Assembly: GCA_902727985.1 (NCBI GenBank) | Contig: CACVAY010000129.1 | Location: 1-64,000 of the forward strand | Source: an uncultured Thiotrichaceae bacterium | Lineage (GTDB): Bacteria; Pseudomonadota; Gammaproteobacteria; Thiotrichales; Thiotrichaceae | DNA length: 64,000 nucleotides | Direction of reading: 5' to 3' | In this document: in pieces, positions 52,597-61,296 of the stretch | Numbering within the stretch: position 1 is the first letter of the stretch | How the letters are laid out: each line of letters begins with the position of its first letter | Made by a program: the position numbers and the translations under genes | Notes under the pieces: generated by a model | Told to the model about the DNA's origin: nothing | What the model saw: only the letters and a program-made list of their open reading frames with translations | Database searches by the model: none

Positions 52597-53493
52597 TTAG
52601 CCATGAGTTCCGGCTTTTAGAGGTTCTGCTTCACCTTCAATATTGCTACTTGCCAGTTTAACAACGGTAGCTTTTTCTTCTTTTTCTTCCTTCGGCATAT
52701 CCTCTTCTTTTGCGCCATGGCGTGCATATAAGAAGCGTAAGACTTCATGGCGACAGTGGTTGTAGGTTTCTTGTTCCGAGACTTCGATACGATCGCGAGG
52801 TCTCTCAATATTCACATCCAATATCTCTCCCACGGTTGCAGCAGGGCCATTGGTCATCATGACAATACGGTCAGAAAGCAAGACAGCTTCATCCACATCA
52901 TGCGTCACCATCATCATGGTATTGCCCAAATCGGCTTGAATCTCCATCACGGAATCCTGTAAATGTGCGCGCGTAAGAGCATCCAATGCACCAAAAGGTT
53001 CGTCGAGCAGCAACACCTCTGGTTCCATCGCTAGTGCTCGTGCGATACCGACACGCTGTTTCATGCCGCCCGAGATCTCATCAGGGCGTTTGTGCATGGC
53101 ATGTTCCATGTGCACGAGAGAAAGGTTGTGTTCGATCCACTCCTTGATCTCAGCTTTGCTCTTCTTGCCTTTGAAGATTTGCTTTACGGCTAATTCCACA
53201 TTCTCATAAGAAGAGAGCCAAGGTAATAGGGAATGGTTCTGGAAGACCATGGCTCGCTCAGGACCTGGTACAGTGACTTCTTGTCCATTTAAGATGACGC
53301 CGCCTGCCGTCGCCTGATATAGCCCAGCCACGATATTTAAGACCGTGGATTTACCACAACCAGAGTGGCCAATGATCGACACGAATTCGCCTTTGTTGAT
53401 TTTTAGATTGACGTTTTCCAAGGCTCGATATGGGCCCTTGGGTGTCGGGAAGTCCATATTAACGCCAGTGATTTCAAGATGTGGGATGCTCAT
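52597..53493 (-). CDS. nrtD: Nitrate/nitrite-type ABC transporter, ATP-binding protein
   Basis: A 298-aa ATPase. Walker A GHSGCGKST at 42-50, signature ISGGMKQRVGIARAL, Walker B VLLLDEPFGALD. It belongs to the taurine/nitrate subfamily; the neighbours (NrtA-type binding protein, NrtB-type permease, Ntr genes) point to nitrate or nitrite. It lacks the fused binding domain of NrtC. Cyanate or bicarbonate (Cmp) are alternatives. Confidence 0.85.
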   Translation of the reverse strand: MSIPHLEITGVNMDFPTPKGPYRALENVNLKINKGEFVSIIGHSGCGKSTVLNIVAGLYQATAGGVILNGQEVTVPGPERAMVFQNHSLLPWLSSYENVELAVKQIFKGKKSKAEIKEWIEHNLSLVHMEHAMHKRPDEISGGMKQRVGIARALAMEPEVLLLDEPFGALDALTRAHLQDSVMEIQADLGNTMMMVTHDVDEAVLLSDRIVMMTNGPAATVGEILDVNIERPRDRIEVSEQETYNHCRHEVLRFLYARHGAKEEDMPKEEKEEKATVVKLASSNIEGEAEPLKAGTHG

Positions 53494-53543: not shown

Positions 53544-54530
53544 TTAGCGTAAAGCAACGCTCTTATCCCATGAAACCTTACTTTGTAAGAACAACATAGT
53601 GCGGTCTAATAAGAAGCCAATTAATCCGATGACAACGACCGCCACCATGATTCTGCCCAGAGAATTTGAACTACCATTCTGGAACTCATCCCAAACAAAT
53701 TTACCTAAACCTGGGTTCTGAGAAAGCATTTCTGCTGCGATGAGTACCATCCAAGCGATACCGAGCGATAAGCGTAGGCCAGTGAAAATCATTGGGATAG
53801 CCGAAGGGAGAACGATTTTTGTCACATGTGTCCACCAGTTAAGGCGCAATACATGGCTAACATTTTGCAGGTCTTTGCTGACAGCAGTAACACCAACAGC
53901 GGTACTAATAATGGTTGGCCATAAACAGCATAGCAGTACAGTGATCGCTGAATTCACAAAAGACTTATCAAACATGGGATCGTTGGTGACATAAGTCGCA
54001 CTCACAATCATGGTGACAATCGGTAGCCATGCGAGTGGTGATACGGGTTTAAATATTTGCACTAGAGGGTTAATTGCGGCGTAAACCGTTTTACTTAAGC
54101 CAGCCACAATGCCGATAGGAATAGCGATGACGGAAGCTAAAATAAAACCAGCCATCACGGTAAAAACACTGGTACCAATTTGATCAAAGAAAGTTGGATT
54201 ACCTGTGTATGGACGAATCTTGGTTTTAGCATCAGGGTTCTCAGCAAGCTTTTTCGCATTGCGTTTTTCCTGACGTTCATAGAAAGCGGTCTCTTTAACG
54301 CGCTCTTCTTTATGCTCTTCAACTAAGGTCTGGAATTGTGCATAAACTTGGGAAGGGCCAGGTACTGCGCCGAGAGAGGTGACAACCTTTGGTGCTAATA
54401 AGCCCCATAGCATCAAAAATATACCGACACCAACAATTGGAATGACTAACGATTGAACAAGCTGTTTCGCGTTAATTCGCGCAAAAAACTCGAACATCTT
54501 CGTCGCATTATCGACTGTTTCTGTACTCAT
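53544..54530 (-). CDS. nrtB: Nitrate-type ABC transporter permease
   Basis: A 328-aa protein. A first membrane segment (about 27-47), then a cytoplasmic-looking charged insert (70-110, EEHKEERVKETAFYERQEKR) and five further helices with the permease EAA-like loop (AIPMIFTGLRLSLGIAWMVLI). NrtB/TauC family. It is second in the operon, after a terminator-like hairpin that follows nrtA. Confidence 0.85.
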   Translation of the reverse strand: MSTETVDNATKMFEFFARINAKQLVQSLVIPIVGVGIFLMLWGLLAPKVVTSLGAVPGPSQVYAQFQTLVEEHKEERVKETAFYERQEKRNAKKLAENPDAKTKIRPYTGNPTFFDQIGTSVFTVMAGFILASVIAIPIGIVAGLSKTVYAAINPLVQIFKPVSPLAWLPIVTMIVSATYVTNDPMFDKSFVNSAITVLLCCLWPTIISTAVGVTAVSKDLQNVSHVLRLNWWTHVTKIVLPSAIPMIFTGLRLSLGIAWMVLIAAEMLSQNPGLGKFVWDEFQNGSSNSLGRIMVAVVVIGLIGFLLDRTMLFLQSKVSWDKSVALR

Positions 54531-54652: not shown

Positions 54653-56068
54653 TTACCCTTTATCGTCAGCTTTTAAGCCGATCTTGAATGATTCGATGTA
54701 TTCATTAGGTTTTGAACCGTCAAAAGTAACGCCGTCGATGAATTCACTTTGAGGGGGTTTGAAGCCTGTTTCTGTCTCGAAATCAGGGAACTCATCCGCC
54801 TTCATTTTGCCTTCTTCGATAAGCTCTTTTGCCGCTAGTGCATAAAGTGCTGGGTCGTAGACTTTCTTCGCTGTGTCCATATACCACTCATCAGACTTCT
54901 TCTCGTCGATCTGTCCCCAGCGACGCATTTGCGTTAAATACCAAATCGCATCTGAGTAGTAAGGGTAGGTGGCGTTGTAACGGAAGAATACGTTGAAATC
55001 AGGCACTTCACGTTTATCCCCTTTTTCATACTCAAACGTACCCGTCATAGAGTTCGCAATCACATCCTTATCTGCACCAACATAGTTCGGTTTAGCAAGA
55101 ATCTTCACCGCTTCCATACGGTTCTTATTGTTATCTTCGTCCAACCACTTTGCGGCACGAATCATCGCTTTAACAACGCGAATCGTGGTGTTTGGGTTTT
55201 TCTCGGTAAATTCTTTTGTCATGCCAAATACTTTCTCTGGGTTGTTTTTCCAGATTTCATAGTCGGTGATGACAGGAACGCCAATGCCTTTAAATACAGC
55301 TTGTTGATTCCAGGGCTCACCCACGCAATAGCCGTCAATTGTTCCAGCTTCAAGCGTGGAAGGCATTTGCGGTGGTGGTGTTACTGAAAGTTGTACGTCA
55401 GCTTGTAACTGACCTTTAATATCGCCTTTTGATGGCGCGTAATAACCAGGGTTTAAACCACCTGCTGCGAGCCAATAACGAAGCTCATAATTATGTGTCG
55501 ATACCGGGAAAACCATGCCCATTTTGAAAGGCTTACCTTCATCTTTATAGGCATCTACTACTGGTTTAAGGGCGTCGGCTTTAATAGGATGAACCGGTTT
55601 TCCATCTTTCATTTCTAGATGTGGCTTCATCTTTTCCCATACAGTATTTGAAACCGTAATACCATTACCATTTAAGTCCATAGAAAGAGGGGTAACAATA
55701 TGTGCTTTTGTACCAAAGCCGATAGTCGCAGCAAGTGGCTGACCTGCTAGCATGTGCGCACCATCAAGCTGACCGTCAATCACACCATCCAATAAAACTT
55801 TCCAGTTAGCCTGAGCTTCAAGTTTTACGTATAACCCCTCGTCTTCGAAGTAACCATTCTCTAAGGCAATGGCAAGCGGTGCCATATCGGTCAGTTTAAT
55901 AAAACCGAATTTGAGTTCTTCTTTCTCAGGCTCACCTGTTTTGGCTAAAATCGGCATTGAGATGAGTGAAGTTCCCAAGGCAACAGCAAGGCCAATTGCT
56001 AATGAACTTTTTTTAAGAAAGCTTCTACGACTTGTTTTGTAGTGTGGTGCGTTATTCATTTTTTTCAT
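54653..56068 (-). CDS. nrtA: Nitrate-type ABC transporter substrate-binding protein
   Basis: A 471-aa protein with a Tat signal: SRRSFLKK (residues 13-20) followed by a hydrophobic stretch ending about residue 43 (PILAKTGE). The mature part begins [20 protein letters not shown], typical of the NrtA/CmpA/NasF family. It captures nitrate (or a related anion) in the periplasm. The 170-base leader holds a sigma-54 promoter and an attenuator-like hairpin. Confidence 0.88.
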
Positions 56069-56088
56069 TCGTCACTCCGGTTTTTGAC

Positions 56089-56148
56089 AAAAAAAACGCC
56101 CAACACGAACAGAAAGAAGGAGGAAAATCCTGTCGTATTGAGCGTCAT
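56089..56148 (-). promoter_or_regulatory. Terminator-like hairpin in the nrtA leader (candidate attenuator)
   Basis: On the minus strand ACGCTCAATACGACAG pairs with CTGTTCGTGTTGGGCGT (about 15 bp with G-U pairs and one bulge) and runs straight into eight T. It lies between the sigma-54 promoter (56238-56253) and the nrtA ATG. Transcripts would stop there unless antiterminated. In other bacteria, nitrate operons use ANTAR proteins (NasR, NasT) for this. Smaller hairpins upstream (around CCCATCAGGG) could be the binding elements. Confidence 0.7.
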
Positions 56149-56237
56149 TACTCGAATCCCTGATGGGCATTGATATCCGCGCCGTTGCAGTTATCGTTTT
56201 GGCTATCGTCGTTGATTGCACTATGTGGAAAAGCTGA

Positions 56238-56253
56238 TGCAAAGAGTATGCCA
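56238..56253 (-). promoter_or_regulatory. Sigma-54 promoter of nrtA
   Basis: Minus-strand sequence TGGCATACTCTTTGCA fits the -24/-12 consensus TGGCAC-N5-TTGCW in both boxes and spacing. It lies about 170 bases before nrtA. An almost identical element lies ahead of glnK. No clear NtrC dyad was found in the following 400 bases. Confidence 0.8.
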
Positions 56254-56657
56254 ATAACTGTCTGTATCTTTAGGGTGATTTATAAGAGGCTGATAAACAT
56301 GTTTAAAACAGAGGCTGTGGTTAAAGGGTGAGCATAAAGAGGAAGCTGGCTATTGTGCTGATGAGCGATATATCAGTGTATCGAATGACCCTGTTTGAAT
56401 AAAACCTGCCCCAAAGTAGAGCAGATAATGTTGCGTTGCATCATACTAAATTCATGCAGCTTTACCTTTTCAGCAACTACTTTCTTAAACATCACCTTTT
56501 TGAGCCGCGCTTGAGTTACCCCGTGTGGGGTTTTACTCACGTACTCAAACGAAAAGATGTTATGGAATATGGCTTTGCCTTACCCTTACCCTAAAAAGCG
56601 TCATATTATCAACCCTATGGAGATTGCTGTGGGCATTAGCTGCCGTTAATAATTGCT
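56254..56657. other. nrtA-ntrC intergenic region
   Basis: About 400 bases with no gene. A dyad GAGT-ta-CCCC-gtgt-GGGG-tttt-ACTC at 56513-56538 may terminate ntrBC transcription or act as a control site. Enhancers for the nrtA promoter would be expected here, but I could not pick one out. Confidence 0.5.
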
Positions 56658-58067
56658 TTAAGTAGTAATGTTTAATTCAGCAATTTTACGGGTAAGCGTA
56701 TTCCTGCCTAGTCCAAGCAACTCAGCCGCTTCCTGTTTTTTCCCACCCGTTTGTGCAAGTGCTGTTGTGATCATAATGCGCTCATAGCTTGGGGTAATAT
56801 CGTCCATGATACGTGTTTCACCTTGGGCAAGGCGTTTACCAGCGTATTGAGCAAGTGCTTCTTCCCAATTGCCTGCTTCCATGGGAAGTTCACCTACCTC
56901 CAGGAACTCTTCAGGCAAATCATTGATTTCGATTTCTTGTGACGGCACCATCACCGTTAACCAACGAGCGATATTTTCCAGTTGGCGAACATTACCCGGC
57001 CAAGCAAACTGTTGCAGTGTTTTGGATGCTGCTTCAGAAGGGGTTTTCTGTTCTGCGTTGAGTTCTTTGGCTGAGGCTTTTAAGAAGTGCTCTAGCAAAA
57101 GCGGTACATCGTCAGGGCGTTCACGTAAAGCAGGGGAGTGAATATTAATGACATTGAGTCGATGGTAGAGATCCTGGCGGAAGGTCTTGTTTTGAACACG
57201 TTCCAATAGGTCTTGATGGGTTGCCGCGACGATGCGAACATCAACAGTTACTGGTGCTTGTCCGCCCACACGATAGAATTGTCCTTCCTGCAAGACGCGT
57301 AGCAAGCTGGTTTGTAAGTCTGCAGGCATATCACCGATTTCATCTAAAAACAGTGTTCCGCCATCTGCTTGTTCGAAACGTCCTTTGCGTTTGCTATGTG
57401 CGCCTGTGAATGACCCCTTTTCGTGTCCAAAGAGTTCGGATTCGAGTAGGTCTTTGGGGATAGCCGCCGTGTTGATGGCTATAAACTCTTTATCAACACG
57501 TGGGCTATGTTCGTGTAATGCCTTTGCGATGAGTTCTTTGCCTGTACCCGACTCGCCTGTGATAAGCACGGAGATACTGGATTGTGAAAGTCGTCCAATG
57601 GCATGAAAGACCTTTTGTATTGCGGCTGATTTCCCGATGAAGGTTTTGGAGGCAATGCTTGTTTTGGTTGTGGATTCATCGGGTGTTGTGTTAATGCGCT
57701 GTTGTTCCAATGCGCGCTTGGCAACATCGGTGACTTCTTTGATGTCGAAGGGTTTGGCAAGATATTCGTATGCACCGGTTTGGAAGGCAGTAACGGTGCT
57801 GTCCAAATCGGAATGTGCGGTCATGATAATGACGGGTATTTGTGGAAAGTCGTTCTGTAGTTTTTCCAGAAAGGTAAAGCCATCTGTGCCAGGCATGCGT
57901 AAATCGCTAAAAATAATCGCTGGTGCTGATGTTTTTAGTGCTTTTAGAGCGTCATCAGCTGAGGCGAAGGTGAGGGCGGATAGCTCTTCGCGTTGGAAAG
58001 CTTTTTCCATGACCCAGCGAATAGATTGATCATCATCGACTACCCAAATTTGTTCAGCGTCATTCAT
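56658..58067 (-). CDS. glnG: Nitrogen regulation response regulator NtrC
   Basis: A 469-aa sigma-54 activator. Receiver domain with phospho-acceptor Asp55 (IIFSDLRMPG), AAA+ domain with Walker A GESGTGKE (171-178), Fis-type HTH at the end (KKQEAAELLGLGRNTLTRKI). The sigma-54-contacting loop reads GSFTGA (218-223) rather than the canonical GAFTGA. It would drive the sigma-54 promoters ahead of glnK and nrtA. Begins 6 bases after ntrB. Confidence 0.95.
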   Translation of the reverse strand: MNDAEQIWVVDDDQSIRWVMEKAFQREELSALTFASADDALKALKTSAPAIIFSDLRMPGTDGFTFLEKLQNDFPQIPVIIMTAHSDLDSTVTAFQTGAYEYLAKPFDIKEVTDVAKRALEQQRINTTPDESTTKTSIASKTFIGKSAAIQKVFHAIGRLSQSSISVLITGESGTGKELIAKALHEHSPRVDKEFIAINTAAIPKDLLESELFGHEKGSFTGAHSKRKGRFEQADGGTLFLDEIGDMPADLQTSLLRVLQEGQFYRVGGQAPVTVDVRIVAATHQDLLERVQNKTFRQDLYHRLNVINIHSPALRERPDDVPLLLEHFLKASAKELNAEQKTPSEAASKTLQQFAWPGNVRQLENIARWLTVMVPSQEIEINDLPEEFLEVGELPMEAGNWEEALAQYAGKRLAQGETRIMDDITPSYERIMITTALAQTGGKKQEAAELLGLGRNTLTRKIAELNITT

Positions 58068-61279: not shown

Positions 61280-61296
61280 TGCACCAAAAGTGTGCA
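61280..61296. promoter_or_regulatory. NtrC enhancer upstream of glnK
   Basis: TGCACCAAAAGTGTGCA matches the NtrC consensus TGCACYAAAATGGTGCA at 15 of 17 positions. It lies about 100 bases upstream of the sigma-54 promoter, the usual enhancer distance. A weaker half-site GGGTGCA is at 61235-61241. Confidence 0.8.

Follow-up and report, generated by a model that had tools for sequence, protein, structure and literature searches.

A probable NasT-type ANTAR attenuator with three hexaloop hairpins before the nitrate-uptake genes nrtABC of an uncultured Thiotrichaceae bacterium

Several described systems come close to the one considered here. The nas genes of Paracoccus denitrificans, Azotobacter, Pseudomonas and Bradyrhizobium are controlled by NasS-NasT, a system that combines a NasT-type ANTAR protein, a leader terminator before the nitrate-assimilation genes and nitrogen control of the NtrC type (PMC3795266, PMC5424462, PMC6759348). 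In P. denitrificans, NasT is kept inactive by NasS as long as neither nitrate nor nitrite is bound, and a mutant in nasS shows constitutive expression; for nasA of this species, "a series of regulatory hairpins" has been described (PMC3795266). The nasF leader of Klebsiella oxytoca, the target of NasR, carries two hairpins whose hexaloops have A as first and G as fourth base (A1/G4), the second overlapping the terminator (PMC7496416), and the eut leaders of Enterococcus faecalis, controlled by EutV, have the hexaloop signature with a mutually exclusive terminator (PMC8934654, PMC3369931). Dual-hexaloop ANTAR targets in which the second hairpin overlaps the terminator are established for EutV and NasR and have been reported for NasT systems (PMC3369931, PMC6759348, PMC7496416, PMC8934654). 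For EutV, a hand-over from a recruitment hairpin to an antitermination hairpin has been proposed, and an additional hexaloop is mentioned in the EutX RNA (PMC8934654).

The window analyzed here is a stretch of 64,000 nucleotides from an uncultured Thiotrichaceae bacterium, and the leader of interest lies on its minus strand, upstream of nrtA. This gene (54653-56068, minus strand) encodes a nitrate ABC transporter substrate-binding protein of 471 amino acids with a twin-arginine-like signal (PF13379, 335 bits) and has orthologues of about 75-87% identity in relatives. Downstream of it are the permease gene nrtB (53544-54530, minus strand), whose best NCBIfam match, TIGR01183 at 158 bits, falls below the 209-bit cut-off, and the ATPase gene nrtC/D (52597-53493, minus strand; TIGR01184, 344 bits, above the cut-off). 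Upstream lie ntrC, encoding a sigma-54 activator (56658-58067, minus strand; TIGR01818, 658 bits, above the cut-off), ntrB, and a pair of genes that we take, from their sequence, to be glnK and amtB. The preliminary description had placed a consensus sigma-54 promoter ahead of nrtA, and the -24/-12 element TGGCATACTCTTTGCA (56253-56238, minus strand) is indeed an exact match to the pattern TGGCAYNNNNNTTGCW, of which the window holds 2 exact copies against 0.32 expected by chance; it is kept in all 13 family leaders aligned. Judging from promoter spacing, transcription is predicted to start near 56226, which gives a leader of about 158 nt up to nrtA. A weak NtrC-box-like inverted repeat (TGCCCCAAAGTAGAGCA, 56407-56423, no strand assigned, 2 mismatches), which precedes the -24 element by about 155 bp, is suggestive only of an NtrC site; the box pattern occurs 43 times in the window against 68.7 expected, which is not above chance.

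Scanning for stems that close an A1/G4 hexaloop reveals three such hairpins in the leader, all on the minus strand: hairpin A (GCAATC-AACGAC-GATAGC, 56219-56202, -1.8 kcal/mol), hairpin B (GATAACTGC-AACGGC-GCGGATATC, 56195-56172, -6.6 kcal/mol, z -3.2) and hairpin C (GAGT-AATGAC-GCTC, 56153-56140, -3.4 kcal/mol, z -2.7), the putative antiterminator. Hairpins A and B are 6 nt apart and are the sole strict AANG tandem pair in the window, both strands scanned; the linker from B to C measures 18 nt and contains a mini-hairpin of the minimum free energy structure (CCC-ATCA-GGG, 56158-56167, minus strand). When the 3' half of the terminator is left out, the minimum free energy fold of the leader consists of exactly the three hexaloops and this mini-hairpin. 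The intrinsic terminator hairpin (56146-56095, minus strand) has 19 predicted pairs with one bulge and a pyrimidine-rich loop, and runs into eight T at 56096-56089; a 75-nt piece containing it folds at -28.7 kcal/mol, against a shuffled mean of -15.8 (z -5.3; 0 of 200 shuffles as good). The earlier account of a 15-bp stem with eight T was thus right in kind for 56146-56089, and the "extra hairpin potential" that it saw before the terminator is more specific than claimed, consisting of three A1/G4 hexaloop hairpins. Positions 56143-56140 form the 3' arm of hairpin C and also part of the 5' arm of the terminator (56146-56128), so that hairpin C and the terminator are mutually exclusive. Hairpin A is weak, and up to the terminator arm the leader as a whole folds no better than its shuffles (z -0.75); because this pre-terminator stability is unremarkable, the case rests on signature and conservation.

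Conservation is seen in an alignment of 13 leaders from the family. In the helix of hairpin A, 97.4% of cells are paired and three pairs have changed on both sides; hairpin C retains its stem in all 13 leaders and includes a two-sided change; for hairpins A and C together, 98.4% of cells are paired, with two-sided changes in four pairs; and the outer six pairs of the terminator are 100% paired, with two two-sided changes. The leader L004, left out of the alignment for its length of 302 nt, likewise has three hexaloops. An arrangement in which A and B alone serve as P1 and P2, with the terminator separate, was dropped, since in the alignment it is the terminator-overlapping hexaloop, C, that is conserved. 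Leader-peptide attenuation, or a small-molecule riboswitch, would be another way to regulate such a terminator, and open frames of 32 and 48 codons do cross the leader. No ribosome-binding site is evident by eye before these frames, however, the start codon at 56170 is not kept in the 13 aligned leaders and the window contains no Rfam riboswitch, and we regard an explanation of either type as extremely improbable.

The same architecture recurs well beyond this alignment. From 98 nrtA loci, 5 duplicates and 1 locus with too little upstream sequence were removed, leaving 92 leaders for scanning, of which 72 have a terminator. In 45 of these 72, the 3' arm of an A1/G4 hexaloop hairpin is also part of the terminator, compared to 1.06 expected from shuffling the adjoining 43 nt (200 runs, maximum 4), and 45 of the 49 hexaloop-sized hairpins found at the overlap position have both A1 and G4. 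The scan finds no overlap hairpin in the remaining 27, at least one of which (L004) is a scan miss, a longer terminator having been chosen there. Further strict hexaloops are located upstream in 32 of the 45 overlap leaders (one in 20, two in 12) and are absent from 13, whereas dinucleotide shuffling predicts 1.3 leaders with one extra hexaloop and 0.04 with two; at least three hexaloops are therefore present in 12 of 45 leaders against about 0.04 expected. By eye, the Thiodiazotropha leaders L038, L041 and L083 have up to four.

Within the family, 63 genomes were searched and 18 have a true nrtA orthologue. All 13 that also encode a full NasT have a promoter about 159-184 nt before nrtA with a leader in between, versus a long leader in one of the five without a full NasT (Fisher 0.0016), an association that is suggestive but not phylogenetically independent, because all five exceptions belong to one genus-level group. 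Three of the five (G001, G010, G012) have no ANTAR protein and a fourth (G011) has a degenerate one (35.7 bits); in all four the promoter is 48-63 nt before nrtA, with neither leader nor terminator. The fifth (G002) has kept a three-hexaloop leader, and no ANTAR protein was found in its genome, which is 85% complete. These comparisons bear on the idea that the terminator merely ends ntrBC transcription or insulates nrtA and is unregulated. It follows ntrC on the same strand at a distance of about 510 bp, which would suit such a role. Transcription from a consensus sigma-54 promoter, however, runs through it, the overlap with an A1/G4 hairpin is conserved in leaders with different neighbours, and no terminator is present in the NasT-less G001, G010 and G012 or in G011 with its degenerate NasT, where the promoter is at -48 to -63; we consider an unregulated terminator very unlikely. 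The degenerate case in G011 (L132, 915-2052) is a nasT gene adjoining nrtA, with both nasS and the leader missing; it may encode a regulator that is being lost. In G046 (L131), two ABC-transporter ATPase genes, presumably of the urea/branched-chain type, stand immediately before a NasT-like ANTAR gene, and neither NasS nor NrtA was found.

In our view the leader is very probably a conditional attenuator of the ANTAR (NasT) type, acting on transcription of the nrtABC nitrate-uptake operon. The preliminary description had recognized the layout of operons under ANTAR antiterminators, and this is borne out by A1/G4 hexaloops of which the last excludes the terminator, by their recurrence in relatives, by the co-occurrence of NasT and by the presence of an ANTAR gene in the genome. 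A search of the genome for nasT or nasR, proposed at the time, returned one NasT-type ANTAR gene outside the window, on contig C33. It is the only ANTAR gene of the genome (G000:C33:90-668) and encodes a diverged NasT of 192 amino acids (PF03861, 69 bits, above the cut-off). Pfam matches it to the ANTAR family alone and leaves its receiver domain undetected; in the NasS-paired NasT of the relative G062 the Pfam receiver is detected (46 bits). Of the NasR/NasT-type control suggested beforehand, the NasT part probably stands; the NasR part does not, as Pfam finds no NIT domain fused to ANTAR in the sole, 192-residue ANTAR protein. Of its leading matches in 369 genomes of the class, none is more than 45% identical to it, with alignments that span part of the protein, and the nearest solved structures are 6wsh/6ww6 (EutV), 1s8n ("putative antiterminator") and 4akk ("nitrate regulatory protein"), the last of which we assume to be NasR.

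Immediately upstream of nasT is an exact sigma-54 site, and the 12-kb stretch there contains three exact sites against 0.04 expected, one of them inside nirB. Genes that we take from their sequence to be nirB, nirD and a nasA-like reductase gene are found about 4-9 kb downstream of nasT; nirB has a near-consensus sigma-54 site about 35 nt before its likely start, which leaves no room for a leader. The gene after nasT, presumably a sugar-phosphatase-like one, is unrelated to nasS, although family relatives have nasS at that place. The interval between nasT and nirB (L134, 748-4604) is occupied by sugar-phosphate-type genes, which appear to us phosphatase-like, glycosyltransferase-like and glycosidase-like.

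If the leader is such an attenuator, NtrC and sigma-54 would start transcription near 56226, and with NasT absent or inactive the nascent RNA would fold the terminator (56146-56095) and transcription would stop at the T run. Active NasT would be recruited to hairpins A and B and would stabilize hairpin C, blocking the terminator and allowing nrtABC to be transcribed. The extra hexaloop would fit the recruit-then-hand-over proposal (PMC8934654). There are differences from the described systems. The eut leaders are dual and this one is triple; eut linkers are 5-12 nt long and a 14-nt linker impaired induction (PMC3369931), a range into which the 6 nt between A and B falls and the 18 nt between B and C, with its mini-hairpin, does not. 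Compared with NasR and nasF, the ANTAR protein lacks a nitrate-sensing domain in Pfam, there is one more hexaloop, and hairpin C is closed by a U-G pair, whereas C-G was favoured in the NasR SELEX (PMC7496416). Compared with the NasS-NasT systems, NasS was not found, NasT has diverged, the target is nrtABC and there are three hexaloops. We found no paper on antiterminator leaders with three hexaloops or on NasT without NasS in the open-licence literature searched, as far as its accessible text extends; the three hexaloops, together with a NasT apparently working without NasS, seem to be novel.

In family relatives the gene order is nasT-nasS-nrtA. Searching the present assembly with PF13379 and with the NasS of a relative (E up to 1) recovers NrtA only. 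It may be that the attenuator is the same and an ordinary NasS was missed by the assembly, a variant of our reading that would imply plain nitrate induction. NasS-NasT is the characterized system (PMC3795266), nasT starts 90 bases from a contig end and the assembly is in 152 contigs, all of which would be in keeping with a missed gene. Yet the assembly is 99.4% complete, both searches return NrtA only, an unrelated gene takes the position of nasS, and the C33 NasT itself has a receiver domain that Pfam no longer recognizes and lacks the Arg-Asp motif described below; a missed NasS is, on balance, rather unlikely.

The wider class offers parallels. In the class, a genome was counted as having NasS when a second protein scored higher to NasS than to NrtA. 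Of the 28 class genomes whose NasT matches are the best, 15 contain such a protein or domain; one of these calls is marginal (G206, 249 vs 245 bits) and several of the proteins are long (open frames of 447-799 amino acids). Seven (G064, G193, G204, G221, G107, G267, G310) have an NrtA orthologue and no NasS-like protein, including assemblies of a single contig (G193) and of two (G310). In one (G090) the only protein scores higher to NrtA and is nevertheless no close orthologue, and the other five have neither NasS nor NrtA, or a weak match only. With the genome of the window and G011, the NasTs that occur with NrtA and without NasS number nine. A terminator-overlapping hexaloop is present at nrtA in six of the seven NasS-less class genomes, G204 being the exception, and is also absent from G011.

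An Arg-Asp motif in the receiver domain, typically SPDRD, separates the two groups. It is present in 20 of 20 readable NasS-paired NasTs, out of 21 in all (6 from the family and 15 from the class; L179 is unreadable at the motif and was left out), versus none of the nine NasS-less ones. Among eight NasTs of unclear NasS status, one (G090) has it. The count over all proteins followed recognition of the motif in a subset of them; G064, G193, G221 and G204 were outside that subset, although the sequences of G064 and of the start of G193 were available when the motif was recognized. A Fisher value for this contrast is for that reason optimistic, and it takes no account of relatedness. The tree does not unite the NasS-less NasTs in one clade; it needs three changes, and long branches make it unsure. 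The NrtA precursor, as a twin-arginine protein folded in the cytoplasm, was considered as a stand-in for NasS and rejected, since the RR motif is found in NasS-plus and NasS-minus genomes alike; by scan it is missing in two of the nine NasS-minus genomes, and in G310 and G107 the matched RR may fall outside the signal peptide. Lost in nine of nine NasS-less NasTs, the Arg-Asp motif is a concrete candidate for the site at which NasS docks.

Nitrate responsiveness of the leader should not be assumed: NasS, the known nitrate sensor of NasT, was not found in the assembly, and the sole ANTAR protein is not of the NIT-ANTAR type. Without NasS, free NasT would be expected to antiterminate constitutively, so that the attenuator would follow the supply of NasT. 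Given the missing NasS and the sigma-54 site of nasT itself, the likeliest control is the level of NasT or a new partner, and not release by nitrate. The sigma-54 sites at both nasT and nrtA suggest that the former would amount to a feed-forward gate on nitrogen limitation; another partner of NasT in place of NasS is equally plausible. Tentatively, and with less than even confidence, we suggest that there may be a recurrent, previously undescribed class of NasS-independent NasT attenuators, in which NasT has lost the receiver motif that contacts NasS, nitrate sensing has given way to control by a new partner or by a NasT supply driven by NtrC and sigma-54, and the hexaloops form a three-step relay of two recruiting hairpins and one antiterminator.

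The leader of glnK (61184-60957, minus strand) also contains an exact sigma-54 site (TGGCATACTCTTTGCT, 61184-61169), the second in the window. An NtrC-like box is found at 61280-61296, and the promoter is separated from glnK by a terminator hairpin and T run at about 61127-61080. This leader was rejected as a second ANTAR site, there being no strict A1/G4 tandem. Upstream sequence is available for 28 further glnK loci of the family; one (L227) has a recognized sigma-54 site followed by a terminator, and many have no recognized site. The glnK leader may be an attenuator or a small RNA. By eye, the loop of the nrtA terminator (56127-56115, minus strand) holds a pyrimidine-rich, CTCCTCC-like stretch resembling an anti-Shine-Dalgarno sequence, and such loops are likewise seen by eye in most family nrtA leaders (L009, L012-L014, L016-L020) and in the glnK leader. 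The terminated leader might, by this resemblance, serve as a small RNA.

In an Rfam scan of the window, every family stayed below its gathering score. The best relevant sub-threshold match is the narK RNA (RF03032; 16.1 bits vs a cut-off of 43.2, E 2.1, 56182-56252, minus strand), of which the leader is by score not a member. The consensus of this family reads as a sigma-54 promoter followed by two A1/G4 hexaloops, and in 369 Gammaproteobacteria 14 of its 16 matches (L185-L200; exceptions G162 and G396) have a NasT- or NasR-like gene no more than 10 kb away. The open-licence literature searched makes no mention of "narK RNA"; our comparison suggests a function for the family, that of an ANTAR target.

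Leaders with at least three hexaloops bear on how an ANTAR dimer uses two of them, simultaneously or sequentially, and provide natural tests of the hand-over model (PMC8934654). A NasT without NasS raises the question of what, if anything, signals nitrate to the antiterminator.
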